Shown one piece after another: positions 2,001 through 63,809 of a stretch of 64,000 nt of DNA. Positions within the stretch are counted from its first letter, which is position 1. The number at the start of each line of letters is the position of its first letter. Origin of the DNA: Moniliella sp. 'wahieum'. Its lineage: Eukaryota > Basidiomycota > Moniliellomycetes > Moniliellales > Moniliellaceae. A program made the translations under genes and the position numbers. Where the stretch lies: the NCBI GenBank assembly GCA_003971905.1, contig RSEE01000002.1, positions 930,001 through 994,000 on the forward strand, read 5' to 3'. Under the pieces are notes generated by a model, which was not told the DNA's origin, did not search any database, and saw only the letters and a program-made list of their open reading frames with translations.

Positions 2001-2072
2001 TCTAGAAAGAGGAGAGTTGCCGACAGGTCACCGGTCAGGGCCCTCTGGCTCCCACCTAAGGCCTAAGGCCTA

Positions 2073-2199: not shown

Positions 2200-3074
2200 T
2201 CAGCCTTATTTGCCTGAATCCCTCAGGGCGGGGCCCACCTCCGTTCCTGGTACGTGTTCCCGTAATTCGGGAGTCCATAGTACCCCTGGCCTTCCTCCCA
2301 CACGCCGCTTCTGGTCCTCTGCCTCCACAGCCGGGGCCTCCACTATATAAAAACGAAAGGCGCGAACATGGGTTGGAATATTATAAAGTTTAGGTTGTGG
2401 GAGTATCAGGATGCCGAGTGAGGCTTTTGTGTCTGTCCCCTGGGGCAGAACGCACCCTGGTCATTAATGGTATTCGTGTTACTGGTGTTACTACCCTGGG
2501 AGATATTGTCAGATCCACATCCAGAGTGGGCTGTTCGGAGTTAGTGATCATAATATTGAAGGTTAAGCGTTAAACGTCGACGCCGTTGCGAGTCGATGAG
2601 ATACGAGAGGAAGCTGTCGCAGCTACTTGAGAGAGGACATCCTGGCAAACCCGAGGGAAGGGAGCACCCGTTACTCAGTCCCAAAAGGGCAGCGCGATAC
2701 AGGGGGCAATGGGGGATCATTAATCATTTGTTCCTCGCACAGCCATGGGCGGTCCAAGCACCCTGAAAGAAAGCGGGCCTCCGGCATATAGCTCAAAACG
2801 TTTATAATTGACGCATCATGTCCAAGTTGTTCAAGCCTCACGGGCCTCACGTCGAGACACTGAATTTGCCATGCAAACATGAAGAGGCTGCCGCGTTGGA
2901 CAACGACCTGGATGTTCGTGGACTTGGGGATGCATCAGCCACCAGCACACAGCCCATATCGGCATTATCGGCAACTCTTTCATGAGCATCTCAACGTGGC
3001 ATCCGGTGGGCTGTCATTCTATAGCCAACAGGCCCGGTGATACCCCCAGAGAAACAGAATGAGCAAGGGACCAG
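2200..3074. other. Intergenic, no gene seen
   Basis: This stretch is AT-richer than the coding regions and has no conserved protein in any frame. It may contain decayed transposon sequence that I cannot recognise. Confidence 0.4.
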
Positions 3075-3075
3075 G

Positions 3076-3150
3076 TGGACCACTTGGGCGTAGATCATTT
3101 GGGCGTGGATCATTTGGGCGTGGATCACTTGGGCGTGGATCACTTGGGCG
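3076..3150 (+). repeat. 15-bp minisatellite over SEM1 stop codon
   Basis: There are five copies of a 15-base unit of the form GATCAYTTGGGCGTG, with a few point differences. The copy nearest the gene contributes the last codons and stop of SEM1 (on the minus strand, CCC AAG TGA). The other copies lie in its 3' untranslated region. The unit length is a multiple of three. Confidence 0.9.
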
Positions 3151-3554
3151 TCTTTTCCAGCTCAGCCCTAGGCAGAAAAAAAACAACCATTAGAACACCT
3201 ACGGGTGCAAGTTGCCAGAAAACGAAAACACGCGTACCTCAAAGCTTTGGTAAAGTCATCCTCCACATCATCATCGTCCCAATTGTCTGCCCATAGGTGA
3301 TCTTCCCCAGTCCGACCCGAGGCGCCACCAACGATCGACAGGCCTACTGCACTGCCCGGTGCAGAGGGGGCTGCTGCGCCATTCGAGATGTAGACGTTCT
3401 TGTCCGAAAGATGGGCAAGAGCCGTATCGGTATCGTTCCAATCCTGGGCATCAAACTCCTCGAACTCGTCGTCCTCATCTAACACACCAAGAGGGGGGAG
3501 GTCCTCGGCGGAAAATTGGGGCAGGGGGAAGGCACTCGTGCTGGCCATTGCCAT
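3140..3554 (-). CDS. SEM1: 26S proteasome lid subunit Sem1/Dss1
   Basis: Sem1/Dss1 is a small acidic disordered protein that tethers subunits of the proteasome lid and also binds BRCA2- and TREX-2-type complexes. The two signature acidic-aromatic motifs are present: DEDDEFEEFDAQDW, and after a linker HLWADNWDDDDVEDDFTKAL. A 70 bp intron at 3168-3237 (GTACGC donor, CCTAG acceptor) joins the second motif to RAELEKTPK-stop, the usual C-terminal helix. The start is the first ATG of MAMAST at 3554; the ATG at 3548 is equally possible. Compared with the roughly 70-90 residue norm the protein is longer, because an Ala/Gly/Ser-rich linker of about 35 residues separates the two motifs. Both exons read without frame breaks. 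Identification is firm. Confidence 0.92.
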
Positions 3555-3685: not shown

Positions 3686-3915
3686 AGATGGTGGTCGGTG
3701 ATTGATGATCGATGGTCGATGGTCGATGGTCGTACTATGTACAACGTACGTTCAACGTTCAACCCCGTACGCTGACGGGTTGATTAATGATTGGCGCTTG
3801 GGGCCCCGGGGGCAGCGAGGAACATGACCAAGAGTGACTAGTGTTGACTTACGGCTTCACTAGTGACTACTAGCTAGTGGCTTCGAAGTGAAGCTTTGAA
3901 TGATTAATGAAGGCT
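3686..3915. repeat. Heptad and TAGTGAC words upstream of SEM1
   Basis: At 3700-3733 TCGA tetramers alternate with TGA or TGG in seven-base steps. At 3750-3765 ACGT alternates with TCA. TGA+TTAA+TGA occurs near 3782 and 3900. CTAG flanked by TGA or TCA is frequent at 3835-3885. The region has no open frame of note and covers the SEM1 5' flank. Confidence 0.75.
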
Positions 3916-4654: not shown

Positions 4655-4870
4655 TTATATCACGTTCATCCGTGTCCACACGCGCTACCTCGGGTGTGGG
4701 AACGGATGGCGGGCACCAGAGGGTCCTGATATCCTGGTGATTCCCCTGGTTCCCTAAAGGGGTGGCGCTACCGAGCAACACACGCAAGATGAACGGGTCG
4801 GTTTAGGCGTAGCTTTCCCCTGTCCCAGCCTTAAGCTCTGTCAATGACATGGATGCAGTATGGAGATGCC
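4655..4870 (+). mobile_element. Short 3' fragment of the same LINE
   Basis: The frame reads RYLGCGNGWRAPEGPDIL and then IPLVP-stop, followed by the same 3' tail (CTGTCCCAGCCTTAAG, CTCTGTCAATG). It is a second plus-strand copy, shorter and more diverged than the one at 1461. Upstream of about 4655 I cannot align it to the LINE. Confidence 0.8.
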
Positions 4871-5800
4871 GACACTACACTTCCCTTCATCAACCATCGA
4901 GGAGCAGGGAGTAAGAGCATGAAAACGGGAAGATATCTCCGAGGCGATACCCGGTATCATATATCAGGCCTCAGGTCTGGGAAGCCCCCGCCCCCGAGCG
5001 GTACAATAGGAACTCCACAGAGAGAGGGTTTTGTTTCGGCTGTGCGTTGCACGATGGCTGTACCCCGCTGAAAAAAAGTGATCGGCCATCACGCAGTGAC
5101 GCACAGTTGCATGAATATAGTACCTAGTACCCGAGACACAGTTACTACTATCACATAGGTTACCGGTTAGTCGTGCTCTGCCCATTTTCTCTCGTAATAA
5201 CATAGGCACCTGTGGCAGTTGATGTCTCCTCTTCGATCTTATTTCCGGGCTGGGGCCCTTTGCTCCCTTTTCACTCTCAGTGACAAAAGCGACTAGTGAC
5301 AAACTAGCGACTCCTTTCGGCTGTGCAGCCCCCAGCCCACCATCCATTATGCATTGCGCTGGTAACCACGGCAATGTGGGGCATCTCCGCCGCTGTGCTA
5401 CCTACCACCAAGTGATGTAACGTGTAATGCATAATGCAGCAGCCGACGCCTATGGCCGGGCGTCCGGATGACAGGGTGATATGATGGCGGACAATGTAGC
5501 ACTTGTCCTGTGCGAGAGGCTCGTGTGCACAGGTGGCAACATAGGCGGCGAGACCCAGGCTAGGCGGAGTCGGTCACAGTAAGAAAGAAAACAGATGTGG
5601 CGGGAGAAGTAGGATATTGCACACCGTTGTAAGGGCCTGCCTGTCCGGCTCTTTGCATTTGACGACCGTGTTAGAGACGAGCCGGTCCAAGTATACGCGA
5701 CGCGCTTGGCTCATGCGACAGCACTTCTCGTCATCGTATGACAAACCATGCCTACTCCATCCCACACGCAATCCCCTGGCCACCGGCCAAAAGTCGGACA
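4871..5800. other. Intergenic, no gene seen
   Basis: No conserved protein is recognisable. Short words such as CTAGTGAC and ATGCAT occur, but no long array. Confidence 0.4.
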
Positions 5801-8828: not shown

Positions 8829-8873
8829 GTCCGGTTTGGACGTCCGGTTTGGACGTCCGGTTTGGACGTCCGG
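8829..8873 (+). repeat. 13-bp tandem repeat
   Basis: Three tandem copies of GTCCGGTTTGGAC plus a partial fourth. No gene function is evident. Confidence 0.9.
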
Positions 8874-14587: not shown

Positions 14588-14639
14588 TGACGCTTGAAGC
14601 TTGAACGTTGGATATTGAAGCTTGAAGGTTGAAGATTGC
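14588..14639. repeat. Composite TGA + tetramer heptad array
   Basis: Seven consecutive register steps: TGA+CGCT, TGA+AGCT, TGA+ACGT, TGG+ATAT, TGA+AGCT, TGA+AGGT, TGA+AGAT. Four of the seven tetramers are perfect palindromes, and three different palindromes occur. The array is immediately upstream of the MIX23-like gene, so it may lie in its promoter or 5' leader. Confidence 0.92.
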
Positions 14640-40083: not shown

Positions 40084-43000
40084 CTACAACGTAACTCTCG
40101 GTTCGTACCCCTCTTTTCCCTCTCCGCCGTCGGAGTCGATGTCGGAATCGCTGTTGACCCCACTGATGGTGGCACCAGGTGGTTCTTCAGGGGACGGTTC
40201 GTCACCCTGAAAGCAGTCTCCACCACGGGCTCCGGCTCAGGGTTGATACGTCGTGTGTCCCTCGGGCAGCGAATGGTAGGAGGAGTATCTGCACTGACGA
40301 CTGGCAGTTAGTATAGCGACAACGAATACGGCGAGCACACTGAGAGGGGCTCGTAGTCAAACAGAGTCTACTACGTCAAAACCCTGCATGGCAGCACCCT
40401 CGAGGATGCCATGGAACGAGATACGGAAGAAAGCATGATGATAGCAGGATTGGAATAGACGGCAGAACTATGGAAAAGAAAAAAAGGGGGAAGGGGGAAC
40501 AGCAACAATGCAAAAAGAGATTAAATTGATGGCGGTGGGAGATAGAAGAGAGCTGGGAGGGCAAGAGGGAGGGGACGGGCGCATTCCAGCCGAAATCCAT
40601 CCGATCCCCTCAAGAATGCACAACTAAGACCTTGAGTCTTACTCATCTCCACCCATCCCGACCCTGAGCCGGAAGACAGATCGCGGGACAAGGGAGACGG
40701 AGTGTGCCGCTTCTTCTTCAGGCGGGGCCGTTGAGCCGACGCGTTGAAAGAAGCAAAGTCGGCGCCCAAGGCCAAGGACGAATTCGTCGATCCGTTGCCC
40801 AGCGAGGAACCGACCATATCGCGTGGCCGATCCGACGGTGGACCCGAGGCGCCGGCAAACGGGTGAGAAAGGGGATTGGCCGCGGAAACTGAAGTGCACG
40901 TCAAATGAGGATTGCTAGTATCTTTCCCACTCTGCTCGCAGTAGGGTGGCACGGAAGTAGCCCGTGTTGAATGGGAAGATCCAGGCAAGCCCGGCGTGAG
41001 GCTGGTAGAGGTGGCGGTGGTAGAAGATAGCCCGCCAGAATCCAAGCCCAAGTTGGTCCCGTCGCTCGCAGCAGATCCTGTGCCAGATCCTGAATCAGCG
41101 CCTGAACCCGATCCCGAGTTGGATCCCGACCCGCACGACCTCCGGCCCGCCATCGACACTGCTCCCTCTTCCCCTATCGACCAAGGGGCTTGCCGAGCAC
41201 TCGGGAGCGTCGAGGGGAACCCACCCGCCTCCCTCGCTGGGTCTGAAGCGCGCAATAGATCATGTCACGGATAGTTGCGTCGGTCAGGGTGGCCGACTTG
41301 GTGCTGCGGCGGTTCCTTCGCCCTGATGAGCTCGAGCAAGGGGAGACCATGGGGAGAAGCGTGGCTGGAGGCGAGGCGGGCACCACCATGAGCGGCGCGA
41401 ATGGCTTCTTAAGCCGCCGATTGGTATTCTTGAGCTGATGCAGTTCGTAGCACCAGCTCGAGTTGCGCAGCGTCGCCATCTCAGCAAACGTGTTGGCGCG
41501 ATCGGGAGGCGTGGTGGTCGGATCCATGTCCATGACCACATGAGGCACCAGGTCGGTCAGTTGCTCCGATGTGGCACGAGCAATGTGCACCCACACGCTC
41601 ACGTTCCGAGCAGAGCGGTGAGTGGACTCGGGAGAAAAGGGCGTAGAAGTGGATGGATAAAAGCTCGATAAGACGTGAACCCTAGAGCCGTCGCTGCCCG
41701 GAAGGGTGTGCAGGACCGAGCTGGGGGACTGCAGGCGCACGGCCCGCGTCAGTGCAGGCACATCCAACGGATCGCAAACGTCCTTAAACCCACGGCCCAT
41801 CAAGTCCGAGGGCGCGAGACGCAGAACGTTGGTGATGGGAGAGAGCACGTTGAGAAAGAGCCCGTCGGTTGAAACGCGTGCCCAGAATCCCAACTGCGAA
41901 GAAGCCCCATCCAAAACAATCTGCTCCGCTAGATGGTACTCCGGTCGGGGACGGCCCGTCGAGACAACAACTTTACGTCCTTTGCCTTGTTCCAGATGAA
42001 GTCTGCCCGACGACTCGATCCAACGGTAGGTGTTGTCCTTGCAGCGCATACGGAACATGAGGTTGACCGCGGGTGCAGCGTCTCGTAAATTGCGTCCACG
42101 ACGGTGCGATGCCGCGCGTGCGGAAGCTGCAATGGAAGCATTGGAGGTGGAGTCTTTGAGCTCACGGAAGACAGGCACCACGTCGGACGGGTGGGTAAAG
42201 TTGGCAATCGAGCAACCAATCAAGTCGGACGGTTTGAACCCAAGAATCTGCTCGACCGAGGGAGATACGTAAAAGATGGTGCCTTTTAATGACAAATAGG
42301 TCAAATCATGAGAGTTCTCGAGGATTAGGTGGGCCCAACGTTGTCGGTCTGTTATGACCCCTCTCACAGCGTCGGATACGTTGCACCCATTCTCTAGAAT
42401 CCGCTCAGCAGCAAGTTCCTCCTCCGTCTTAACCACAACGGGTGGCTCCCCGGACGGAAGCCCAGAAGCCAACTTTTTCCCATTGGAGCTGGTAGTGAGC
42501 GTGCCGACTTGATGGGGCGTCAGGGAAGGGGTCCAGGATGAGTAGTTGACAAAGTATGATCCGTCTGTCTTTTCCACAATCGACCCAGGCTGTTCAATCG
42601 AGTCAATCTGGAAACCCACCATGTACTTGATTCGATCCGAGTTGTCCCACGCGATCGGCACAATGGTAACCAAGTTGATGAAGGGTCGGCCGTCCTTGCG
42701 ATAATTGATCAAACTTGCCTGGCACTCTTTCTTTTGAGCCACAAAGGAAGCCATGTGTTGGACGGCGAGTTGATCCGTCGCATACCGTTCCGAACCTTTT
42801 ATCACAAGTCCAGCAGGTACTTGAAGGAAACGGCAGTTTCTGCCGAGGACTTCTTCCTTGCCGTACCCCGTCAATCGAAGGAAGGTGTCGGAGCAGTACA
42901 CGATAGGCTGGTCGGGTAGATCCACATCCACAATCGTAAAAGAGCACGACTCATCCACTGGTCCAATCGTGACCATCGGCTTGGGACGGGCGGCTACTTT

Positions 43001-44177
43001 AGCCAAGGCAGTAAGGATGTCAAATCCTGAGGACGAATAAACTTTGTTAGGGGTGAGCTCGTTGGGGAGTTGGATTGTACTGTCGCGGTAATGCGTGCTG
43101 GGCAACCCGGTAGCAACGCTGAACCCCACACTTGAGCTTACACCATCTCTGGATTCGTCCCGTCCTTTCGGGATGGAGGTGTGGGATCGATTCGACGGTT
43201 TGAGGGAGGAAGCACCAAGCTGGAAACTCCTTCCGCCCGTCCGTGGGCGGCTGGTTGAGGGCGGATGCAGATCAGGGGTGGACTCTGTGCGGGACAAAGG
43301 ACGCTTCCTCGTATTCGTCTGCTCTCCCGCCACAGAAACAGATCGATTCAGCTGGGATCGACGCTGCTGATGAGCCATAAGGATCTGTTGTTGCTCCTGG
43401 AGGCGACGTTGACGCCGACGTTCTTGCAGTGACATCTTTTTAGAATACGGCCGAGCCTCCGGCGCCCCGACCGTCACTACTTTCCCTGCCGTGTTGGGCA
43501 GAGCCGCGGGCAAGGTTGCACGCTGGAGCTTGTGCTGCACGAGGGTACGGTGGTACTGGAGGACGCGTTGATGATAATCGGAGTTGTCACTTGGGTGCGT
43601 TGTCTCGGTAGGCTGGGTAGAGACTAGGTTCGGCGCATCGCTTTGAGAATTCGTAGCAAACGGTGGCGCCGTTGTCCCCTGACCTGTTCTGGCTGGGTCG
43701 AGGGGAAGGGTGTCTTGTGTCATGGACAGAGAGGACGTGGGGCGGAATGCAGCCATCATGTCCGAGTCCCGGCTGTGAGCAGCAGGAGTCGTGGAGGAAC
43801 CTTGGATGGGGAATCCTGCAGTCCCAACAGCGCCGTTACTTAGGGGTTCAGCATTAAAATACGACATGGTCGAGACCAAAGAATCGCCATGCTGAACTGT
43901 GGTGGAGTCAGGGAACAGGATCTGTCCAAGCGAATCAAGAGGGAGGTCGAAAATGGACCTGGTACCGCTCGGGATGCAATCCGGATCAAACTGGCCGTCG
44001 ACCGTCCGTACCATGCAGGAGAGATGAGATACCATCACTGCCCAAGTGGGACGGATCAACCAATGTATCCATCGAAGATGTTTGCTCCGAATCGGGCTGA
44101 GGAGGAGGGAACATCGTACCCGTTGAGTCGGACATATCGAACAAAGCGTAGAGGTCGAAATGCGTAGGATCCATCAT
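40084..44177 (-). CDS. WC1: White-collar-1-type blue-light photoreceptor, no GATA finger seen
   Basis: A flavin-binding light sensor and transcription regulator that works with WC-2. The start MMDPTHFDLYALFDMSDS is at 44177; a shift near 44,030 enters a long open frame. The LOV domain (about 360-490 of that frame) has the photo-active Cys in GRNCRFLQ (codon at 42833-42835) and the extended loop GLVIKGSERYATDQ typical of WC-1. PAS-B (YLSLKGTIFYVSPSVEQILG) and PAS-C (GFWARVSTDGLFLNVLSP) follow, then LHQLKNTNRRLKK. A shift leads to a Ser/Gly-rich tail with a nuclear-signal-like RPRLKKKRH. A proposed 342 bp intron (40301-40642) joins a last exon ending GKEGYEPRVTL-stop at 40084. No C-x2-C...C-x2-C GATA finger occurs in any frame used, as in other basidiomycete WC-1 proteins. 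Confidence 0.88.
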
Positions 44178-45233: not shown

Positions 45234-47403
45234 GGTGAGACCGGTGAATGACCGTGCGTCGGCATCGACGGCCTTCGGATCGCTATACGCCTCCCCAGGT
45301 GCTCCTTGCACGGGGGTTATGACTGCCAGGGAGCTACCACACTTGCCCTGCGCAGTTGATCTATTGATTAAGATTTGGCTCCGCAGTACCCGACAGCATC
45401 CCTGGTCACATGTCACATGTCACACAAGGCATTGCGTCTGTGTCAAAATACATTGGGGGCCGTACTGCATACTGGCCGAGTGCGTGTTGGGACTCAGATC
45501 TAAGACATGCGACAGACAACATGTGCGCTGTGGTGCCTTGAAGTTTGAAGCTTGGTGCATGATGCATGATGCATGATGCGAGATGCACCATCCCGCTCTG
45601 CCACTGAGGACTCAGACTGAGTATGGACAGTACTCCCCGCCCTCAGTTGGGGCTAAAATGTAGAATTAGAATGGGAATCACATGCATCACGTGTGATCGT
45701 GTGACAGTAGATGATATGTCCGCACCGGCATATGTCCTGTATGACGCACCCAGCTGTTGCAGGGGTTAACTAGTAACGAGCAACGCGCGCAACGCGTAAC
45801 GATTAACTCCTAAGATCCTAAGGCCGTAGACTTTAATCGGGGAAAAGTTGCAAGCTCCCACACCAGGCATCCGACTAACAGCGCTACGGCCGCCTGTGGC
45901 GAAGGTGGAAAGGTGGCGTGTGGCTGGGACAAGTGCTGGTGTGATCCGAATGTGATACATTCGCTCTGTCACGGGGTCACTCATCGGTTCCCACATGTCA
46001 CGTACATCACAGCCTGTATGACGCTTGCCACATGTCGGTCACGCGGCACCGTCACACCTGAGGCTCAGGCCACACACAGTAAGGCCTTAAGGCCTAAAGC
46101 CTAAGGCCACCCAGATCTCAGGATCACGGATCCGTTTTCCTTCCATCGTCAGCGGCTCAGCCACCATCCATATCAGAATGCAATCGCGCCATCAGTACTG
46201 CTGTCCTTTTCCACAAACGTATCCAAGTCGACCTCCTCGTTGTGGTGGGGGCACTTTGGATGGTATCCACATGCTCTGCATGCCAACCCACCCCCACCCC
46301 TCCTTCGTACCTCTGGTATCCACACCTACCACACTACACACTCTCTCAATGGATGACGCATGATGTGTGGCGCTCGATTCAAACTCGAGATCTCCACACA
46401 ACACATGTGTGGAAATGAGTGAAAAGGGCCATCCACATCATTTTACAAGGCTTTATAGGCAGAAACGCTTCGCCCTCCACTGGCTGACCTCGGGTCGGCC
46501 CCAGGAAGGCCTCATCGACTCATCGACCATGGACTCATCGACCATCGACTCATCGACCATCCCTCATTCGGCGCGTGTGCTTTGCAAGGAAGAAAGCATG
46601 TTACAAATGAAATTCACGAGACCTATATATACTTCACCGAGAGAACGACGTGCAACATGTATAACTGTACTTGCACTGCAGAGCTGCCAGTACGCTCTAA
46701 GATCTCAGACTGAGATCCGAGAGAGGGGCCTCTGAAGCTCTGAGATCTGAAGCTTGAAGTTCAAGCCTGTGAGGGATCTGAGTGCCTGAGCCTCAGGGGC
46801 GTCGCTCTAAGATCTGCCCGCAACTGGGGGTAGGTTGCCAGCCTTGTCCCTCTGCAGAGAATGGTAGACTACCGGTGATGTGTGTGCTTATCGAGCACAC
46901 TTGGCACACCACCTCCCAGATCGATCGTGGGGCATTCAGGACGGGGCAATCGTGTCACACCTGTCACATGTGACACATGTTGTGTTGCTCACAGCGGCTC
47001 AGCGATGAGGCCTGAGGCGCATCGATCATCATGCTCATCGATCGCGAAGGGGTTGCTGGTTGGACACGTTGGCGCTATTAAGCGCTGGGCGGCTGAAGTT
47101 TTTGAAGCTTGAAGCTTTTGAAGCTCGCCCCCAAATGGCATAATATTGTATCTCATCACCTGCATCACCACTTTCCGCCTTCTTCTCTGGGCTCCCGTCT
47201 CCCTCGCAGCTTCAAGCTTCCTTTTCAAGCTTCACTGCGGTCACCGTGACATGTGACATGTGACAGTAGGTCAAGTGACCGGTGACCACAGTCACTAGTC
47301 AAGCCGGCAATAACCTTAATAACCGGTAACCCCTATAGATATGGGCCCTGATATATGATAGACGTTGCACACCATTTGTCACATGTCACCGGCCGTACCG
47401 AAT
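45234..47403. repeat. Gene-free stretch rich in heptad arrays
   Basis: Examples: TCA+CATG twice at 45409-45422; TGA+TGCA twice near 45560-45580; TAA+GGCC and TTAA+GGCC near 46080-46110; ATCGACTC repeats at 46516-46560; TCA+CATG+TGA near 46965; TGA+GGCC+TGA near 47005; TGA+AGCT twice near 47100-47117; TGA+CATG twice then TGA+CCGG+TGA at 47247-47285; TAA+CCGG+TAA near 47325. I see no protein or RNA gene. Confidence 0.75.
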
Positions 47404-47850
47404 CTCTATGTTGTGTGCATTCCATTGACAGAGCTTAAGGCTGGGACAGGGGGAACGCTACGTCTAAACCGAACCGTTCATCTTGCGGGGGTTACTTGGA
47501 AGCGCCACCAAGATTAAGGGACCAGGGGGATCGCCAGGATATCAGGACCCTCCGGCTCACGCCATCCGGTCCTCTATGTCATATGCAAAATTGATCCGCC
47601 GTGCATCTTTACGTCATAGGCACGTGCCGACCGGTGCCACGTTCCCAGCCACCCGCAGCCAGCGCGTATCGGTGATATTATAACTACGGTGGCGAAGGGG
47701 GGAACGGTGGCTAAGGTGGCAATGGTGGACCGGGGGAACGGTGGCTAAGCTGGCGACGGGGGAACGGTGGCTACGGTGGCGGCTGCGACGCAGCACCAAG
47801 CTGGGGCGAAGCCCAGCTGACCGGGCCGTAGGCCCGGTGGTCTCCTCGTA
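47404..47850 (-). mobile_element. Internally deleted LINE copy, head-to-tail with full copy
   Basis: The left part (47404-47575) is the LINE 3' end, including the reverse complement of CTCTGTCAATGGAATGC. The right part (about 47632-47850) is the LINE 5' region, with CGTTCCCAGCCACCCGCAGC, the GGTGGCTA repeats and the paired hairpins. Only about 60 unrelated bases lie between them, so nearly the whole coding region is missing. The right end touches the 3' end of the next copy directly. Such a deletion derivative keeps both termini and could in principle be mobilised by the intact element. Confidence 0.85.
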
Positions 47851-47938
47851 TCTCTATATTGTGTGCATTCCATTGACAGAGCTTAAGGCTGGGACAGGGG
47901 GAACGCTACGTCTAAACCGAACCGTTCATCTTGCGGGG

Positions 47939-50900
47939 TTACTTGGAAGCGCCACCAAGATTAAGGGACCAGGGGATCGCCAGGATATCAGGACCCTCCG
48001 GCTCACGCCATCCGGTCCCGTACCCTAGGAAGCGCGTGTGGACACGGAGGAACGTGGTTGACATACGAGCGAGGAACCATTTCCACTGAGACTTAGTAGC
48101 CAACTCCTTCCAATGCGCAAACAACTTGCCCGCCGTCTTGGTGCCGTAGTATCCTCGCGTCGTCAAAACCAGGGGGAAAAACGGTTCTTGAGTGCGTCCC
48201 TGGTACTTGGCGTTCTTGTCGCATTCTGCTTGTTCAAGCAGCCGAAGCAGTTCCTTCTCCCGGCGTTCCAAAGGCGACGCAGTGCTCTCATGCACCACCC
48301 GCCGGTACGCGCTCTGCGCCTCCTGCGATCCCGTGTCGCGCAGCGTGTGGTCTACCTCCATTCCGGTTCCTCCCAGTGCTCCGGGCCCCATCACGCGGTA
48401 ATCGGTGCGCTGTGCCTTCCGTCCGCGCCTCGTCCCATCCTCTTCCTCCACCATAGGTTCGTTGTGGACGTGGGTGTCGGGGATGGAGCGGAGGAGCTGG
48501 AGAATGGGCTCCCGCACTGCCTCATGCAACGCACCAAACTTGGCCTGGGTGCGGGTGCAGGACATGATGTTCCAGCGAGGACATGACGCCGCACTTGCAC
48601 ATGCTGCGCGTGGTGCGGCACAGCGTGCGGAGCTGGAGACCAACCTGGACCTGCTGGTCAGAGAGCTTGAGGTACGGGACGGATGGAATAGCGGAGAGCC
48701 AGTTGTGGCTCAGCGGGTTGCTGTGCTCAACCACATGACGACCATCGGCAGCGTCCAGCTTCTGGAGCAGCTCCTGTCGACTTTGCTCCCACATCTCGCG
48801 CAGCTGGCGTTGCTTCGTAAATGCGTTGGCCCTTGCCGTTTGCGGTCCCGAACGGTCAACATAAGTGGTAATAAGATAGTCGTTGACCTCGTTGGCCGCG
48901 GCACGGGCGTGGGGCGCAATATACGAGTAAAGCGGGCTGCCACATCCTCCCAGCCGAAGAGGCAGGCTCATGAGCATGTCGAAGTGGTCGTCCTTGGCAC
49001 CTTGGGGATCCTCGTCGCCCCGGATCCGTCTGAACTCCGTACAGATGAAGGCATCAATCTCGGCCAGCACGTCGTCTAGCTCTCCTTCCATCTGCATGGT
49101 GCGGAGCAGGTGGCGCAGCTTGGTCTGAGTGCTGAGCCGCCATAGTAAGAGGCGTCCCTGGCGGGTGATGCCATCAAACTTAGGCATGTTCTCCCTCAGA
49201 CTGGCCAGTTGGGCCCGGAGCCACGATCGACGACAGTCTACCCCTCCCACACAAGTGCCCAGAACCTGCAGACCATCCACCCGAATCTGGTCCCGGTCCC
49301 GCTCGACACACTTGCGCAGGTTGAGCTTGAGGCCTGACGCGTCGTCTTCCAAAATCTCCGCGGCTAGGCCGGTAATGCCTGGCCCTGGACCGAAGATCGT
49401 AATGTCGTCCAGGTATGCCATCACCAGGTGCCCCGGCGGCAGGTCCTGTTCCAGTTTCTCCAGCGTGGGCCGCACTGCGATGGAGAAGAAAAAGGGGGCG
49501 AGGGGGTCGCCCTGCCGTACGCCCTCTGCCGACAGGACGTTGGTCTCATTTCCGCCCGACGCGACCCAGAGCTGGGTGGGGGAACCATAGATCCATCGGC
49601 CCAACGTGAGGAGATGGGGGGCGTAGGCATGGAGCGCCTTGGCGAGTGTGCGACGGCGCACAGTGTTGAAGGCGTTGGTAAAGTCGAGCATGGCGACGTG
49701 GCTGAAGTCGCCCAGTTCCGCATCGTTCTCCCCGCCTGGCGCTGTCATGCGCTCGACCATCCGTACGATAGGCTCCACCCCGTTTTGCGATGCTACTCCC
49801 AACTGGGTGGGGAGAAGCCAGCTGTTGGGGGCGATCGCTCGAGCGATGGCCTTGGCGCACAGGCGGTAGATCAGCTCCCCACAGGCGATGGGGCGGATGC
49901 CTCCCGATGCCTTCTCCAGGGGGGTGAGGCGGGAGGCCAACAGGAGCTCGCGTCCTGGGGCGGTGCCGTGGTAAATACTCTTGGTGAGGGCGGTGAGAAA
50001 GGCGACGAAGCGCTTGCATTCAAGGGCCGTTCGTAGGAGGGGCTGGGTCCACCCGGATAGACCTGCCCCAACGTCGATTCTGAACGTGGCAATCAAGGCA
50101 ACAAAGTCGATTTCGTCCAAGTCCACCACGATACGGTCACTGTCCGTCGTGTCGGTGAGGGTGGTGCCCGGCGGTACCACGCGGCCTGTGTGGGTGGGAC
50201 GAGTGCGGGTGGTGGTGTTGCCAAAGGCTGTGCCCGGGCCGAGGCTGAAGGGGTTCGCCTCTCCAACGGGATGGAGCTTTTCCAGGCTTGCCTGGGTCTC
50301 GGTGGTGAGAGGGGCAATGGTGGATTGGCCGACGAGGGTACTTGCTGCGCGGCTGCAGCCCTCCCGAATGAGGCGGTCGGCCTTGGTGACTGGGTCGAGT
50401 GCCTCGCGCGTTGAGAAGTCGGGGGGCGGAGGGAGTTGCCAGGCGCTGTTGGGGTACGTCCCGATGAGGTTGTTGTCCTTGTTGTGGTAGCGGAGTACTT
50501 CCTTAGGCACCGCTAGAATATCCATCAGGTGTGCTGACGAGGGCTCCTGCAAGTAAGCGTCCGCCAAACGGCCGAGCATCTGGAGGAAAGGGCGCTTCAG
50601 GTGTGGCGGTATCTTGCGTGTGCCTGGGCGCTCGGCCAGGGCGGTCAAACGGGGAAGGAGGTCGGCCCCCGTGTCGGTCGAGGGGTTGCGCGGTCGTCTG
50701 GTGGCGGTGGTGGTGGGGGCGCGGCGCGGCGGCGGGGGGGCGGTGTGCGCGGGGGCGCGGGGGGGTTGAGGGGTCGGGCGTGCGGCGGGGGGGGCTGTCT
50801 GCGCGGGGGCGCGGCGCGGGCGTGGGGTAGTGGGGCGTGGGGTCTCGGCGCCGTAGCCATTGGTTGGCTGTTCGGAGCCCAGCCGGGGGCTGCGGCGCCG

Positions 50901-51230
50901 GGGGGTGGCGAGTTGGGGGTTGGGGAGGAGGGGCGTGCCTTGACCCGGTACTTCGGGCACCGGGTTCCTGGCTTCGGAGTTGCGGGGGCAGCGGGCCCTG
51001 TTGTGGCCAGGGTTCGTGCAAAGGGAGCAATGATACTCGCGCTTGGAGGGTGAGTCGGTGGCGGGGGGGGCGGGGGTGGTGGGGATGGGGGTGGGGGTGG
51101 CGGCGGGCGGGGCGGGCGTGTCACGTGCCAGGACCCCAGGTGGCAGCAAGCCGGCGCCGGTCACGTGGTCAGGCATCTGCTCAGGTTGAGTGAATGTCTC
51201 ATCGACCGGCACTTGGTGCTCTGGGGCCAA
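47939..51230 (-). CDS. LINE polyprotein: zinc knuckle, RT, restriction-like endonuclease
   Basis: Residues 68-81 form a zinc knuckle, CSLCTNPGHNRARC. Pro-rich linkers follow. The reverse transcriptase spans about 365-720, with KASGGIRPIACGELIYRL, AMLDFTNAFN (513-522), EGVRQGDPLAP (569-579) and the catalytic AYLDD (605-609). A CCHC motif, MCKCGVMSSLEHHVL then Cys, follows near residue 890. The frame breaks at about 48556 and continues in the next frame as RTQAKFGALHEAV, then RTDYRVMGPGALGGTGMEVD, matching the RPD...D core of restriction-like endonucleases, and KFGLFAHWK-like basic residues. The frame ends at 47939; older copies stop a few residues earlier at AIPLVP. The break may be a sequencing error or real inactivation. 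Confidence 0.9.
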
Positions 51231-51479
51231 AGGGGCGGGCGTGGGGGAAAGGGCGGGTGTGGGGGACGGGGCGGGAGCGGGGGCGGGGCTCCCGGGGAGG
51301 GGGGGTCTCGGGCGCCAGGACCTCCTCGGGGATCCGCCATACGGGTGCGCAACACCATGGGCGGTGCCGGGTGGTCGAAATCGGTTGGTTGCCCTGCACT
51401 TTTTACCTCAGCTGCCCCGTGACACGTTCCCAGCCACCCGCAGCCAGAGTATCGGTGATATTATTTGCCCTCTCCAGCG

Positions 51480-51592
51480 TGGAAGGGTTCCAGCGTGGAA
51501 CGGTAGCGACGGTGGAACGGTGGCTAAGGTGGCGAAGGGGACCGGTGGCTAAGGTGGCGATGGTGGGCCGGGGGAACGGTGGCTAAGGTGGC
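51480..51592 (-). repeat. Short tandem repeats in LINE 5' region
   Basis: On the plus strand GGTGGCTAAGGTGGCGA-type units recur four times with variable spacers such as GGGGGAACG. The deleted copy at 47690-47790 has a different number and order of the same units. Confidence 0.85.
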
Positions 51593-51600
51593 GACGCAGC

Positions 51601-51648
51601 ACCAAGCTGGGGCGAAGCCCCAGCCGACCGGGCCGTAGGCCCGGTGGT
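51601..51648 (-). other. Two stacked hairpins at LINE 5' end
   Basis: ACCA (51601-51604) can pair with TGGT (51645-51648). This encloses an 8-bp hairpin (51606-51624, GAA loop on the plus strand) and a 7-bp hairpin (51628-51644, GTA loop). The same structure, with one shortened stem, is at 47796-47842 in the deleted copy. It lies at the very 5' end of the element RNA. Self-cleaving ribozymes occur at this place in R2 elements, but I cannot fit the full HDV fold. Confidence 0.6.
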
Positions 51649-51720
51649 CCTCCTCGTACCCGTTACGCGTTATACGCGTCATATATCATAGAAGCCCTGA
51701 CAGACCTTGACTATCGCGGG

Positions 51721-54329: not shown

Positions 54330-56090
54330 ACCCAATTTTTTCATTAACTTCCTGTGCGACGATAGTCGCCCCCGTGCCCATTTACCTTTCTAGGTTGCCC
54401 GCGCACGCAACCACCCCTCCTGTTTTCCCTGGATCCCCGTTGTTCCTCTACTGCGTGCGTTGTTTCCTGATTACCCCTGTCCGTAAGCAAAATGAGATTC
54501 GATTCGTGAGTTTCCCTACAGTTCATTGGCGTCTTCCCATATGCTGTCCTCGCCAATTGGATCAACCCAGTACAGGCAACCTCCTCTCTTAGTTTCTCCA
54601 CCCTTCGACCAGAACAAGCCTTTTCAGATCGAGTCGGATACAAGCGGCTATGCCGTGGAAGCGGTTTTATTTCAACCTCACGGGGGCGGACAGAGCCCCA
54701 TAGCCCATTGGTCCACTGGGATGCCCACACCCATCGAGCAGCGTTGGGGAGTGGGCGATCAGGAATGTTTCCCCTCATCACGGCGCTCAAGGTTTTCCGG
54801 AATTTGGTGGAATCGGCCCGGGACCTGGAGTTAGTGACCCACCACAAGAATCTTGTGAGCTACAACGACGAGGGTCAGCGCAACCGCCGGCAAGCAAGCT
54901 GTGGTGCGTTTTCTTTCGGTCAACCATTGATGATTTAGCGTCCCGGCTCGAAGAACGGTACTGCGAACGGCCTATCCTGTCGGCCGGATCTGGTGGAACA
55001 AGAAAATGATGGAAGACGCGGCCGACGCGCGGCGTAATGGTGGCGCAAGCAACCTATCCTTCGAGCCTAGTCGGAAGAACATGATGATGAGATATGTGCG
55101 TCCCTCTCGCTGCCCCCCTCGCAGTAGTTGATCCTCACCGATGTCGATGGTCATGCTGGAGAAGTAGAAGCAGCCGAAGAGCCACTACATCAGGACCATT
55201 CGTCCGAAGGCGAAGTGATTGAGGCAATCCAAGAGCTCAGAGAGCACGACGGAGGACACGAGGCCATTGTGAAGCGAGTCGAGAGGAAGACTATGCGCTG
55301 CAGGTCTATGAGGGGCGCGACGGGCCTCTCTACTTCCAGGAGAGGCATATGTGCCCGAATCCGAAGCTCTACGGTACACCTTACTCACGACCACCACGAA
55401 GAAGAGTTCGAGACTGGGCACCAGGGAAGAAAGCGCACGTATGACCCACTGGCGCATTGGTATTGACCGGGAATAGCCTCTGATGTTCCTCGTTACGTAG
55501 AACGTGCTCACTATGCCAAACCGCCAAGAGCTGCCGCCAGCATAATCCCTCAGGTCTACTCTACCCATTGGAGATTCCAGCTCGTCCTTGGTCCAGTTTT
55601 AGTATGGATCACTTCAGGCCCCTGCTGGAGGGAGGACACGGGAGTTTGGGTGAGGTGCTCAATATGGTACCGGTGGTGGTTGATCGGCTGTCCAAGTTGG
55701 TGGTGCCAATCCTCGCAGTTCGAGCCACTCAGCTGGCGGCTTGCTCGAGCGCTTGTCGGTCCATTGTGTCACGGGCGGTGCCCGCCAATCCTCTCCGACT
55801 TTTCCCGAGTATGCTGACGATAGGGTGGTTCACCACGAGGTCCGGGAGGTCCTTGACTCCCGCTGTAAGGGTTGAGGAGGACGTCTTGAGTACTTGAGTG
55901 CCTTTTCCATTTCAAGGGCTACGCTGTCCACGAGCGGGAGTGAGTGCCACTGGTTGCGGATATGTCCCATGAGGCCGATCCGGTTGTCCTTGAAGACGAT
56001 CCTGATTCCGGCGCACGTCGTATTACCTTTACTCGCTTTCCCCAATCCGGGGAAGTGAGGTCTGAAAGGGGGCAATGTCACCAATTGACG
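54330..56090 (+). mobile_element. Decayed Ty3/gypsy retrotransposon (RNase H, integrase)
   Basis: Frames carry the end of the polymerase region and RNase H: KPFQIESDTSGYAVEAVLFQ, then PIAHWSTGMPTPIEQRWGVG, and after a shift ALKVFRNLVESARDLELVTH. Further right is the integrase zinc/core junction (CSLCQTAKSCRQHNPSGLLY, then PWSSFSMDHF and VPVVVDRLSKLVVPI). Several stops and shifts separate these. No LTRs, primer-binding site or gag could be recognised. Described as a remnant only. Confidence 0.8.
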
Positions 56091-59251: not shown

Positions 59252-60298
59252 TCAACTGTCCAGCGCCTTGGCGTTGGAGGTGGACCGAGAGGTCCGTCGG
59301 TTCTGGAGGCAGCAAACGCGTTCGGTCAGCGGGGGGTAGGACGGGTGAACGTTCGGCAAGACAGAACACATACCAGGCGCGACGTAGTTGACTATGGGGA
59401 CAATTTGGATGATGTGGGGGAGTGACTGCCTCTGCGAGGCTAGAGGTGTTTGCACCACCACTGGACGTTGGACGTTGACCACATTAGTATGGAAACCCAA
59501 GAGGAGGAGGGATGCTCACAAGGTAATACGGAAAAGGAGGATTTCCAACAAGTAACGTCCGACGGTCCGAACACTAATTTCGGGAAAGACAAGGAAGATG
59601 CGGTTGATGCCATTCAGGTCTTGGTATCGCTGCGCATTGGTATTGATGGAACCGGCGAGCATGCGAAGCGGGCGCAAGGTTCCCCGAAGCGAAGGAGCCG
59701 CCGGTATACGATGGTCTGTTAGGTTTTCGGGGGGTTGGAGTACGCTGGGTGCATCAGCAGAAACCGAAGGGGAAGGGAGAAGTGTATCGGCGGGTTGACG
59801 ATCTTCTGTGATCAAATTGACAGCACCAACGAGGAAGGGTACGTCATCGGAACTGGCAGGCAAAGTGTGAGCCAACTATCCATCCAAATGGGATGATGCA
59901 TAAGGCGACCTACCCATCAAGCTCTCGGCCAGTATGATCTCTGATCGTAATCTGAGCCACGAGCGGCGGTTGAACTGAGATACGACGGAGCGGATCTGCC
60001 TCGTAGGCTGGGCCAATGGTGGGGCTCTGAAGGATGGTGAGCTCGTACTTGCGGCTGAATGCAGAGGGAAATGAGGAAGCGGCGGCAGGGGGAAAGGCGG
60101 CGGGCGGGGGGGGGGGGGGGGGTCAGTGTCTCTTATCAAACTCTTACAGGTCGCGAAGGGGGAGGCTCACCTCGCATTTTGATCTTCCCAGGGGCGTAGG
60201 AGACGAGTGCGTCTTGGCCGTTGGTCAGTTGATTCGGAGGGGAGGGCGGAGGCACTGGTCGAACCAGCGCTCGCATCTAGTGGATTGGAAGAGCTCAT
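59252..60298 (-). CDS. Velvet-family developmental regulator
   Basis: Velvet proteins are fungal DNA-binding regulators (NF-kappaB-like fold) linking development, light and secondary metabolism. Exon 1 starts at 60298 (MSSSNPLDASAG) and ends RLLRPWEDQNA at 60171. After a 116 bp intron (60055-60170), exon 2 reads RKYELTILQSPTIGPAYEAD then PLRRISVQPPLVAQITIRD, the N-terminal velvet strand block. A short intron (59876-59913) precedes exon 3, with PFLVGAVNLITED, LRPLRMLAGSINTNAQ and the hallmark INRIFLVFPEISVRTVGRYL. The exon ends at a GTGAGC donor at 59519. A possible last exon (VQTPLASQRQSLPHIIQIV) ends near 59252. The exon 2-3 splice is out of phase by one base, probably a sequence error. VeA, VelB or VosA subtype not decidable. 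Confidence 0.8.
60106..60122 (+). repeat. G17 homopolymer in velvet intron 1
   Basis: Seventeen G on the plus strand; a C run in the velvet transcript between donor and acceptor of intron 1, where it may serve as part of the pyrimidine tract. Length uncertain. Confidence 0.9.
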
Positions 60299-60700: not shown

Positions 60701-61227
60701 CACACTGCAGGCATCATCGGCATCAAAAAAAGATGCCACAGCTGCTGCGGATGTGCAAAGCGTGAAGCCAGAGGCGTGCAGCTTACACAGAGAACCGCAC
60801 AGGGGGCATGTGTGGCGTCTTGTGTGCATTGTGCGCCTTAGACTGATCAGTGCAACCAATCACACTACCCACAGGAACTGAGACTCAGTACCCGGTATGC
60901 CCAATATACTCAGACGCAGTCCGAGCTGCAAAGGCTGGCGACAGGCCTCCACCCGTGTTGTTGCCATCGACCATCGCGCATCGCGGGAGGCAACGATCGA
61001 GACTGGGCAGGCGGGAGCAGCGCGGAAGCTCGTAATGCATAACGCCTAAGGGCTATATTATGCGTTGTGGATCGATATGCATCCAAAGACTTTCACCACC
61101 CTGAATAATAGGCATGCAATTGTCGCAGGTCCTATGCCACTAGGAGAATAAGATGAACGTGAACGCGCGCTGCTGAGCCGAGCTGGCACTACTGCTCAGG
61201 CTGAGCGCTGAGCCTCAGCGTTCGCGC

Positions 61228-61278
61228 CTAAACGTTCAGGTTCTGTTGAACTCAACGTTGAACGTTGAACGTTGTGAA
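61228..61278. repeat. ACGT heptads
   Basis: After ACGTTCA and a TGAACTCA break: ACGT+TGA three times in register, then ACGT+TGTGA. TCA/TGA+GCGC units lie on both sides (61195-61215 and 61310-61375). Confidence 0.9.
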
Positions 61279-61595
61279 CGAATAGTACAGCTCATTTGGC
61301 TCATTTGAGCGCTCAGGCTGAGCACTGAGTGTCGTCGGTATTGAGCCTATTGAGCACTGAGGCTGAGCGCGTGAACGGTGGGAGGGGCTATAAGAGCTGT
61401 GTTGGAATTGCCTTGTCGCAGGTCAAGCTTCAAGGACGATTCAGTTCGGTGCCGACGGCGACATGAATGGTGGCCGGTGGGCACGGCAGCCAGACATCAA
61501 CGCACATCAACGCATCAACGTACCATCTACGTTCAGTTCAACCGTTTAATGTTCAATGTTCATCGTCCGACGTCGATATGCATCAAGGCCACTCA

Positions 61596-61620
61596 GTCTC
61601 AGTACTCAATATTCAATGGG
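61596..61620. repeat. TCA+GTAC, TCA+ATAT heptads
   Basis: TCA+GTAC, TCA+ATAT, TCA+ATGG in register. One of the few places where ATAT fills the tetramer. Confidence 0.85.
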
Positions 61621-61745
61621 CCTAAGAACTGAGCCTCGGCCTCATGCATCGTACATCATGCATCATGCATCACATGTCACATGCAACATGCATCGCACAG
61701 CGCTGCGCGCGCAGCGGCTGAGCCGCTCAGGCTCCGTGCGCGCTT

Positions 61746-61945
61746 AACTGGTAACCGGTAAGCGCTAAGCGGCTCAGCGCTGAAGAAGTCAACAGTTTAC
61801 GCGTTACGTGTTACGAGGCCTGAGGCCCTGACGGCCTGACGCCTGTGGGACGGACCTTAGGCCTTAGGCTTAAGCCTGACGCCTGACGCGTGATGCATGT
61901 GACATTGACATGCAGCATGTGATGCATGTGACCCGGCGACCCGGC
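61746..61945. repeat. Mixed TAA/TTA/TGA heptad region
   Basis: TAA+CTGG, TAA+CCGG, TAA+GCGC, TAA+GCGG; then TTA+CGCG, TTA+CGTG, TTA+CGAG; then TTA+GGCC, TTA+GGCT; then TGA+CGCC, TGA+CGCG, TGA+TGCA. The change from TAA to TTA to TGA triplets keeps the same unit length. Confidence 0.88.
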
Positions 61946-61957
61946 GACCGGATCGCT

Positions 61958-62036
61958 TGAGCTTGAAGTCAAGCTTGAAGCTTGAAGCTAAGCTTGAAGT
62001 TCAAGCTGTTCAAGCTTCAAGCTTCAAGCTCGAAGT
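61958..62036. repeat. AGCT heptads in both orientations
   Basis: TGA+AGCT units to the left pass through a switch near 62005 into TCA+AGCT units, giving an inverted pair of arrays around GTTCAAGCTGTTCAAGC. Confidence 0.88.
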
Positions 62037-62140
62037 GATCGCAGATCTGTCAAGCTTAATTAGATCAATTTCGATCGACCGTGGTATGTATTTGCAGTGC
62101 CTAGTGGGGGGCGCCTGAGGCCTGAGAAGCATTCCACCGT

Positions 62141-62190
62141 TCAACGTTCAACGTTCAACGTTCATCGATCGTTCATCGATCATCGTACGT
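62141..62190. repeat. TCA+ACGT then TCA+TCGA array
   Basis: TCA+ACGT three times (62141-62161), TCA+TCGA, then TTCA+TCGA, TCA+TCGTACG. A direct switch of tetramer from ACGT to TCGA without loss of register. Confidence 0.92.
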
Positions 62191-62305
62191 TCATCCACCC
62201 ATCTTCTGGTGTCCTCATGCATCATGTCCTCCTGCATCATGCATGCCATGCCATCATGGGGCAGAGGGGCTAGCCTGGAGGCTAGTGGCATGCTGCAAGT
62301 CTCAC

Positions 62306-62432
62306 TGACCGGTGACCGGTGACGTATGACCAACTGATCGATGATGCAATGATGCATGATCGATGATCGATGATCGATGACGCGTGACGCATGGCGCATG
62401 GCGCTCGATGACGTGTGACGTATGACGCGTGA
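62306..62432. repeat. Longest mixed heptad array
   Basis: In order: TGA+CCGG twice, TGA+CGTA, TGA (one base extra), TGA+TCGA, TGA+TGCA, one base, TGA+TGCA, TGA+TCGA three times, TGA+CGCG, TGA+CGCA, TGG+CGCA, short break, TGA+CGTG, TGA+CGTA, TGA+CGCG, TGA. Ten of about fifteen tetramers are perfect palindromes, of four kinds. Confidence 0.95.
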
Positions 62433-62509
62433 CGGGTCATATAGTTATACGAATGTGTCATCATGTGCCACGTGCCACGCGCCACGTGATTATTGGGCCT
62501 GGACCCACG

Positions 62510-62545
62510 TGATGTGTGACATGTGACGTGTGACGTGTGATGCTT
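62510..62545. repeat. TGA+CATG/CGTG array
   Basis: TGA+TGTG, TGA+CATG, TGA+CGTG, TGA+CGTG, TGA+TGCT in register. Confidence 0.9.
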
Positions 62546-63458
62546 GTGATGCTTGTGGGGAAAGCCAGAGGAGATCGACGAGAGCAACGTGCATGGGACA
62601 CTCCCGTGGAACCTGTGCACCAGGCAATCAATCAATACCTGGCAATTCCCAGTCAAGAGACTCAGCCCAGAGCCCATTCTGGCTGAGCCGGGTGCAACGG
62701 TCAGTTCGCTGGCGCTCAGCTCATACGCTGATGCCGTTGGCGGACTACAGCCTATTACAGCTGCTATAGCATGTGCTACATGCAGCAGGACAGCCCCCAG
62801 CAAGCCCAGATCCATAGCCCGACAGCCTGATGAACATAGGACAGAGAAACTGCACCCCTTTTTCCTGCTAGAGCGCATATGAGCTCTCGGGTTTGTACCG
62901 GGTACCGATTATCGATTCCTAGCTTTACCGGTTTCACCGGTTACCAATGATTAATGAAAGCGGAAACAAGCTAGGTTCTTCTGTCTCTGTTAGTTGAATC
63001 GATAACGTTGTTTGATACAACCTTTCCAGCTTCTGATAATCGATAATCGAGATAATCGACGGTCAGCGAGTTCAGACTTCAATATAAGCTTCAAGCTTCA
63101 GGCCAGGGGCCTGAGGTACTATATACTCAGTAATAGTAGTCATTAAGTCATTAGTCACTACTAGCTTCACGGACGTGTATTGAGCAACTGATTACTATTG
63201 CTGATAGTGCTGATGAGTTCTGGGGGTTTCCTGGGGTACTGAGATCTGAAAGATCTGAGAATCAAGCTTCAAGGCCGGCCCATTCCCTCATCGATCTCAG
63301 ATCTCATGGAGTATCAGTATATCAGGGTCCCAGGGGCATGCGGATTTGCAGCGGACTGTTGAACACATTGACGTTGAGCGCTGAGCACGTACGTTGAGCC
63401 CCCGATTTGGCCCTTTTACTTTTGTTGTGGGCTACAGAACCATGCCACTGTATCGGTA

Positions 63459-63512
63459 TCAAGCTATCAAGCTTCAAGCCTTCAAGCTTCAAGCTTCAAG
63501 CTTCAAGACACG
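63459..63512. repeat. TCA+AGCT array
   Basis: TCA+AGCT, one-base slip, TCA+AGCT, TCA+AGCC, slip, TCA+AGCT three times, TCA+AGAC. Confidence 0.92.
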
Positions 63513-63809
63513 GCATGTGTGCTACGAGAGTGCCGCAGCCACAGCACAGCCTCTGCCGTCAGCGCGTCAGCGCATCAGTGCGTCTGGCCCCCAGACCCTC
63601 AGACCCAACCCTAACGTCTAAACCTCAGGCCCTCCTCACCTTTGACTTCTCGCCCAAGACTCTCCAGACCCTTCCCCCCTGGTCGGCCGCTAAAGCTTCT
63701 GGCTGGGCTCCCAAAGATCGCCTTATCCCCTAGTAGACTGATAGTCGATCTTTTGCCGATAGGCACCACAACAATATAACTAAGATCGTTAAGATCATCG
63801 ACCATCCTC

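Follow-up and report, generated by a model that had tools for sequence, protein, structure and literature searches.

Results

Self-complementary tetramers between identical T-any-A triplets

The DNA analysed here is a 64-kb stretch of the genome of the fungus Moniliella sp. 'wahieum' (hereafter the window; positions 930001-994000 of contig C2, in an assembly of 69.49 Mb and 223 contigs). Scattered through it are seven-base units, or heptads, in which a tetramer, often self-complementary, lies between two identical triplets of the form T-any-A (TXA-N4-TXA, where X is any base, the same in both triplets; T.A denotes the flank pair around X, and a' and b' are the complements of a and b). The features discussed below are collected in Table 1. 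In the window, 121 of 202 same-X TXA-N4-TXA sequences had a palindromic N4, with 15 tetramers represented; by triplet, the fractions were 58/94 for TGA, 43/73 for TCA, 10/21 for TAA and 10/14 for TTA. Ten Markov simulations at orders 1, 2, 3 and 5 gave means of 0-3.9 palindromic cases for the same counts. A 250-kb sample was assembled from 25 stretches at round coordinates (L009-L033), free of stretches allelic to the window; here N4 was palindromic in 186 of 365 cases and all 16 tetramers were present. The heptad pattern claimed in a preliminary description of the window is thus real and genome-wide. That description counted 15 of the 16 tetramers and found AATT unclear; near-complete use of the tetramers holds, but AATT does occur, in 2 of the 186 palindromic units.

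The triplets had also been described as of a stop-codon type. Comparison of the 16 possible flank pairs around X revealed that T.A alone departs from expectation: 283 of 527 same-X cases were palindromic in 264 kb, far from the level of about 6% (16/256) at which the pattern would amount to chance, while the remaining 15 flank pairs gave 3.6-8.3% in the same DNA (chance, 1 in 16). Palindromic spacers at a period of 5 (33/112; chance, 1/4) and at a period of 9 (6/271; chance, 1/64) were both near chance, and a 50-kb control from Escherichia coli contained 7/49 palindromic cases and none of the 12-mer elements defined below. The rule is T-any-A with the same X on both sides, a self-complementary N4, and a period of 7 but neither 5 nor 9.

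Per-site rates and flank consensus were determined from isolated R-oriented events only (n = 140). Events per 1000 sites numbered 6.3, 6.2, 5.1 and 3.0 for X = A, G, C and T, respectively; X can be any base, and a stop-codon reading was therefore rejected. TCA and TGA seem preferred mainly because they are about threefold commoner than TAA and TTA, and the choice of X largely tracks the availability of TXA sites. Beyond the required T and A, X was the only position clearly off background. A reading of the heptads as binding sites was rejected, as the 140 isolated events had no flank consensus. Separately, TGA-N4-TCA was palindromic in 15/41 cases vs 7/63 for TCA-N4-TGA (window plus L009-L028), an orientation-dependent excess that is not explained by the model set out below.

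The 12-mer unit

For larger counts, the window was combined with L009-L036 (337 kb). Because parts of the window have their alleles in L034-L036, shared scars are counted twice; L001-L008 had been picked by the heptad pattern and were therefore excluded from every count. The palindromic units take the form TXAab-b'a'-TXAab or its reverse complement, that is, a five-base direct repeat with a two-base gap filled by the reverse complement of the repeat's end. When palindromic cases were scored for period-7 matching, run lengths peaked at 5, then at 12 and 19. Of 155 isolated cases, 107 had at least two extra matching bases past the ten-base core on one side only, 25 had them on both sides and 23 on neither. 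As the sequence reads, the unit is a 7-bp insertion that converts a non-palindromic yyTXAabzz to yyTXAab+b'a'+TXAabzz.

The 337-kb set contains 472 such 12-mers at T.A (both orientations, arrays counted per unit), compared with 0-4 in Markov simulations of order 2 or 4 and 10-21 at order 6. The rate per 1000 sites was 18.2 at T.A and 1.1 at the next flank pair. Genome-wide, TGAGGNNTGAGG occurs 2241 times and the same pattern read backwards 186 times; for TCAAGNNTCAAG, the corresponding numbers are 5782 and 205. Among the matches listed (the first on contigs C1 and C2), the gap was filled by CC in 72/100 for the former and by CT in 84/100 for the latter.

Other origins for the unit were considered. 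A plain 7-bp duplication was rejected as the chief product (exact plain 14-bp cases: 6 at T.A, 2-10 at other flank pairs), and a 3-bp TNA duplication is ruled out because the copied dinucleotide sits outside TNA. Insertion at a pre-existing palindromic site was likewise rejected, with single odd palindromes around TXA at 0.067 and no excess over the range for the 16 flank pairs (0.053-0.070). An Rfam scan of the window gave no match at the gathering score, and the organelle markers PF00124 and PF00115 had no match.

Filled and empty alleles in a second haplotype

A 5-kb piece of the window matches contig C50 over its full length (93% identity), with further copies of about 72% identity on contigs C107 and C81, and the assembly seems, from these sequences, to hold two diverged haplotypes or homeologs. 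Four window blocks were aligned with C50 (17.6 kb of aligned columns, identity 94.7-96.8% outside gaps). The indel spectrum peaked at 7 bp, with 18 cases vs 8 each at 4, 5, 6 and 8 bp. Fourteen of the 18 are exact conversions between TXAab and TXAab-b'a'-TXAab, with the filled allele in either haplotype. A scripted test of this grammar covered 16 of the 18; the indels at 2026 and 51679, which were omitted for being no more than 30 columns from the start of a block, fit exact conversion in the haplotype alignment. Single indels at 53912, 52648 and 3857 were parsed by eye, beyond the scripted test, and 53912 is a fifteenth fit except for an adjoining substitution.

Most unfilled sites are non-palindromic (that at 61044 is palindromic by chance); the palindrome is therefore created by the event, and we infer that the change is a gain, not a loss. 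A deletion across the five-base repeat would yield an identical allele pair; the scars would still need a prior maker. Arrays were identical across haplotypes in 17/54 cases in the window blocks and in 19/49 seen from the C50 side. Many arrays are thus old and inherited, which argues against assembly errors. The non-identical arrays differ by substitutions in 5 (window) and 8 (C50) cases and otherwise in length, not always by multiples of seven, because arrays also slip and align poorly.

Single elements and mixed arrays

The preliminary description emphasized arrays of seven-base units. Arrays of at least two units do occur (63), but the isolated single element predominates (256/319; these counts, and those for mixed arrays, were made without L036). 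Eighteen arrays mix tetramers, and 17 of these consist of exactly two blocks. The outer flanks of the mixed arrays match their blocks on both sides in 12 cases, on one side in 5 and on neither in 1, while both flanks match in 39/256 single elements. Mixed arrays arise because each block copies the flank on its own side, left or right: an insertion templated by the other flank of the same TXA yields a different tetramer in the same register and with the same X. At window position 3857, as parsed by eye, two insertions around one TCA make up a mixed array in one haplotype that is absent from the other. Selection for a dyad every seven bases, which had been offered as one explanation, is not needed for mixed arrays. 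Nor do two bases have to change at once into another palindrome, as had been supposed, since a single step turns the dinucleotide beside an ordinary TXA into a unit. The seven-base register that mixed tetramers were said to preserve does not hold throughout: it slips by 2 (62306-62350) and by 3 (62378-62423).

It is also conceivable, but highly improbable, that the heptads are ordinary heptanucleotide repeats shaped by slippage together with selection for a protein-binding or structural dyad. Homogeneous arrays such as that at 63459-63507 exist and probably slip, and ordinary slippage probably contributes to their growth as well. The scars avoid long open frames, as functional non-coding motifs would: they number 0.08 per kb within frames of 400 codons or more and 1.63 per kb elsewhere. 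Such scarcity in likely coding sequence is expected of 7-bp insertions. Against such repeats, however, 256 of 319 arrays are single units, the unfilled alleles are unrepeated, and all 16 tetramers are used without a flank consensus. Pure slippage of a heptanucleotide microsatellite was rejected: as the preliminary description had argued, slippage of a single unit is insufficient, given 18 arrays that mix tetramers and unfilled alleles that contain no repeat.

A nine-base class and the boundaries of the junction

Identical NNTXANN 7-mers two bases apart are in excess (ratio 2.4). In this 9-bp class, which is rarer than the 7-bp class, NNTXANN is duplicated together with two mirror-image bases; the two-base spacer is the reverse complement of the adjoining dinucleotide, as for palindromic (P) nucleotides, in 31/50 cases at T.A vs 43/516 at other centres. 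A junction table was compiled with other centres as the control for expected counts. In the top class, two palindromic bases link a left end at +3 to a right end at -1 (68 observed, 1.5 expected), and the same form was seen with right ends at -2 (9 vs 0.44 expected) and -3 (8 vs 0.40). Plain 7-bp duplications numbered 36 vs 6.0 expected, a count that includes chance palindromic units and that the model does not need. Among allelic indels of other sizes, 2/5 of 9 bp, 2/8 of 8 bp, 0/8 of 6 bp and 0/3 of 10 bp fit the junction grammar. The outer limits of +3 and -3 are symmetric about X, as are the T and A, and this arrangement suggests the geometry of a symmetric DNA cutter with a 7-bp duplication.

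In one case, parsed by eye, the counterpart of window position 52648 (L035/L034) has a 13-bp insert with a full TGTGAAC copy on both sides of GT-AC-CA, readable as two further bases in addition to P bases contributed by each end.

The 7-bp insertions could also be produced during replication by template switching. A nascent 3' end halted after TNA would snap back, its last A pairing with the T two bases before it, and would copy two bases; the resulting 7-base mini-hairpin would be kept as a bulge, with no break and no transposon. This scheme gives the dominant 7-bp product exactly, with a single polymerase, and assigns T and A the role of a priming pair. In excerpts of published work, DNA polymerase theta in vitro uses two terminal base pairs as the start of stem-loop synthesis (PMC11292364), template switching makes hairpins in evolution (PMC8794818), and further precedent is given (PMC4912351). 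Snap-back copying nevertheless seems unlikely: the size is fixed, with no palindromic-spacer excess at periods 5 and 9; the complementary pairs A.T, C.G and G.C are unused; and the 9-bp class with symmetric +3/-3 boundaries and the right ends at -2 and -3 are not predicted. Some DNA fold-back process is likely, and the preliminary description, which proposed fold-back copying as one explanation, was partly right.

A model of hairpin-ended cutting and rejoining

The heptads are probably footprints left when DNA is cut and rejoined through hairpin ends, as would happen if a transposon flanked by a 7-bp target duplication excised. The model starts from what can be read directly in the DNA, namely that 7 bp are inserted relative to an unfilled allele, that only T.A sites are used, that a P dinucleotide is added, that the outer boundaries are symmetric and that the flanks serve as template; hairpins, their opening two bases past the tip, a transposase-like cutter and its membership of a transposon would account for these. 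An enzyme would act symmetrically on NN-TNA-NN such that both broken ends keep a copy of the 7-bp site. Each end would be sealed as a hairpin and then opened two bases past the tip (the P-nucleotide step), so that each opened end would carry a self-complementary 3' overhang of four bases (left, abb'a'; right, y'y'yy). Because these overhangs do not match each other, one would be kept as a bridge and the other trimmed, and only one side would therefore become palindromic. The joint would read TXA-abb'a'-TXA, or TXA-y'y'yy-TXA in the mirror type, and the site would be 7 bp longer than before. Without trimming of the second end, a full 7-bp copy plus the P dinucleotide, 9 bp in all, would result, and the 8- and 9-bp classes would represent incomplete trimming. 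Mixed arrays would be built when the TXA is hit again later and the other flank serves as template.

Two ends that both bear the 7-bp site would most simply come from a transposon that duplicates 7 bp of its target and is then excised. Our best guess for the breaking agent is such a cut-and-paste transposon, present in few copies and with NN-TNA-NN as the duplicated 7 bp. Even a low-copy element could account for many scars, since a footprint outlasts its element. Duplication and palindromic P nucleotides occur together at the joint in 14/18 haplotype indels, with two P bases in the dominant class. The assembly also contains a fragmentary Pso2/SNM1-domain match (PF07522, E = 1.3e-4, over the cut-off).

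Several observations weigh against the cut-and-rejoin reading. Scans of 337 kb out of the 69.5 Mb detected no element that combines inverted repeats with NNTNANN duplications: the first scan returned 12 pairs, which were heptad sequence by eye, and each of four settings returned 0-2 pairs (0.09-0.32 expected). None of the large haplotype gaps inspected was an NNTNANN-flanked transposon. The transposase profiles PF13359 and PF10551 had no match, other families not being searched. The joint is very uniform, compared with 28 different Ac/Ds footprints described for Candida in passages of PMC5873905. Four of the 18 seven-bp indels have no exact fit, those at 59321, 61179 and 63270 lie outside the conversion rule, and 19 of the 50 spacers of the 9-bp class are not P bases. 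Finally, the main joint explains neither the plain 8-bp duplications (11 vs 1.65 expected) nor 30 non-palindromic units flanked like a plain 7-bp duplication. Profiles PF05699 and PF18758 gave a signal nowhere and are hence uninformative.

Identical hairpin-end joints would arise without a transposon if a host or domesticated nuclease or transposase cut NN-TNA-NN directly. The junction evidence serves this alternative equally, and no transposon was found in the sample though the process has been active since the haplotypes split. A staggered cut alone, however, fails to give two hairpin ends that both bear the 7-bp site, and a low-copy transposon would escape a 337-kb sample of 69.5 Mb; we regard direct cutting as improbable. 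A broader proposal within the cut-and-rejoin reading is tentative and on the doubtful side: a domesticated or very low-copy T-N-A transposase might act, through hairpin ends and strict host joining, as a genome-wide germline mutator resembling variable-diversity-joining [V(D)J] recombination, with tens of thousands of 7-bp inserts.

Comparison with known systems

PIF/Harbinger and IS1031-type transposons have a 3-bp TWA/TNA target duplication and share the T-N-A core. In contrast, the direct repeat here is 5 bp in the dominant class and 7 bp in the second class, not 3 bp, and PF13359 is unmatched. Since the element was sought and not found, the scars are not ascribed here to any known family.

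Excision of hAT elements (Ac/Ds; yeast, Candida and plants) likewise leaves two copies of the target site, joined with short palindromic additions or with deletions, an outcome attributed to host nucleases that open hairpin ends; in Candida, P nucleotides are the rule in Ac/Ds footprints and the joints are varied, according to passages of PMC5873905. hAT target duplications are given as about 8 bp in part of PMC3706591. The scars here, by contrast, span 7 bp around a central TNA and mostly show a single kind of joint, and a search of 337 kb revealed no element. V(D)J coding joints carry one to three palindromic bases from hairpin opening, and Artemis predominantly opens hairpins two bases past the tip (as outlined in PMC3528771). 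Unlike these joints, the fungal scars have no signal sequences and no deletion between two loci, and lie at scattered single sites genome-wide. Galileo, of the P superfamily, has a 7-bp target duplication whose consensus, GTANTAC in the portion of PMC4168063 that describes it, is symmetric around a free central base; the scar core here is instead T-N-A with free outer bases, and no P-type element turned up, none having been specifically sought. Template-switch mutations resemble the scars in the one-step insertion of a reverse-complement copy of nearby sequence (sections of PMC8794818). The scars differ in their fixed size, T.A requirement and symmetric boundaries, though the products can be written as template switches. 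A search of the open-access literature, in the portions of text it returned, found no description of such heptads.

Genome scale and surroundings

The 25 round-coordinate stretches hold 126 scar clusters, about 5 per 10 kb (range 0-18 per stretch), which extrapolates to some 35,000 clusters in the 69.5-Mb assembly, both haplotypes included.

Table 1. Positions of scars, arrays and neighbouring features in the window
Feature	Position	Strand	Remarks
Dense cluster of 7-bp scars and short arrays	60860..63520		44/59 same-X TXA-N4-TXA palindromic, 13 tetramers; unusually dense, 44 palindromic units in 2.66 kb
Scar GGTCACCGGTCA, mirror type	2026..2037	-	C50 haplotype empty
Scar TCATT-AA-TCATT	2717..2728	+	C50 haplotype empty, reads TCGTT
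Scar TCAGG-CC-TCAGG	4964..4975	+	C50 haplotype empty
Scar TGAGG-CC-TGAGG	47006..47017	+	Filled in window; C50 haplotype empty (TGAGG)
Two-unit array TGACATGTGACATGTGACA	47247..47265		C50 haplotype has one unit fewer
Scar TGACC-GG-TGACC	47276..47287	+	C50 haplotype empty
Scar TCATA-TA-TCATA	51679..51690	+	C50 haplotype empty save one substitution
Scar TCAAG-CT-TCAAG	61423..61434	+	C50 haplotype empty
Scar TGAGC-GC-TGAGC	63375..63386	+	C50 haplotype empty
Empty site CCTAAGG	61045..61051	-	7-bp insertion in C50 haplotype
Empty site TTACA	62755..62759	+	C50 haplotype: TTACA-TG-TTACA
Empty site TTTGA	63641..63645	-	C50 haplotype: TTTGA-AA-TTTGA (tetramer AATT)
Second class CATCACC-TG-CATCACC	47154..47169		7-bp direct repeat and 2 palindromic bases; single copy in C50 haplotype
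Second class AATAACC-TT-AATAACC	47309..47324		Fits 9-bp grammar vs C50 haplotype; adjoins another scar
Mixed array TGCA, TGCA, CATG between TCA triplets	61656..61679		Both outer flanks match own block
Mixed array TGCA, TCGA x3, CGCG between TGA triplets	62350..62387		Sole three-block case among 18
Array singled out in the preliminary description	14593..14627		TGA-AGCT units at both ends, imperfect units between; tandem-repeat listing
Homogeneous TCAAGCT array	63459..63507		6.7 copies; tandem-repeat listing
Other tandem repeats of 13-15 bp	3075-3151, 8829-8873, 46511-46561		Some units palindromic or TXA-containing
White-collar-1-like PAS protein	41174-44059		Longest listed open frame, 961 aa; no 12-mer scar inside
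LINE-like element	47403-51656		4,254 bp; missing from C50 haplotype
Reverse transcriptase frame of LINE-like element	48522-51230	-	RVT_1
Dispersed repeat of about 200 bp	about 1800-2000 and 4658-4860		Resembles LINE 3' end (by eye)

Among named hits, the white-collar-1-like protein is best matched in Tilletiaria anomala (53% over 58% of the query) and next in many other Ustilaginomycotina, which makes a smut-related basidiomycete the most likely source. Kilobases 48-50 of the window, which belong to the long interspersed nuclear element (LINE)-like element, have no 12-mer scar. The dispersed repeat has at least 35 more matches (85-93%) elsewhere in the assembly. At L034 5009-5199 (window position 63803), the C50 haplotype has a 177-bp insert bounded by an exact 7-bp duplication, CATCCTC, that is not TNA-centred; partial copies of the insert lie in L014, L018 and L035 and at window position 56076.

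Implications

One short rule accounts for a genome-wide sequence texture that we read as a record of break-and-rejoin events. Each scar reveals its unfilled site, its boundaries and the end that kept the overhang, such that hairpin opening and end joining would be readable from the sequence alone. The scars also call for caution elsewhere, as arrays of palindromic heptamers may be mistaken for binding sites or microsatellites when they are in fact scars. Should the cutter prove to be a transposase, its target rule would be extreme, T-N-A only, and its joint unusually uniform, both helpful for finding the enzyme. Were a T-N-A mutator at work, it would be the main source of short tandem repeats in this genome and of an important part of the indel variation between its haplotypes.

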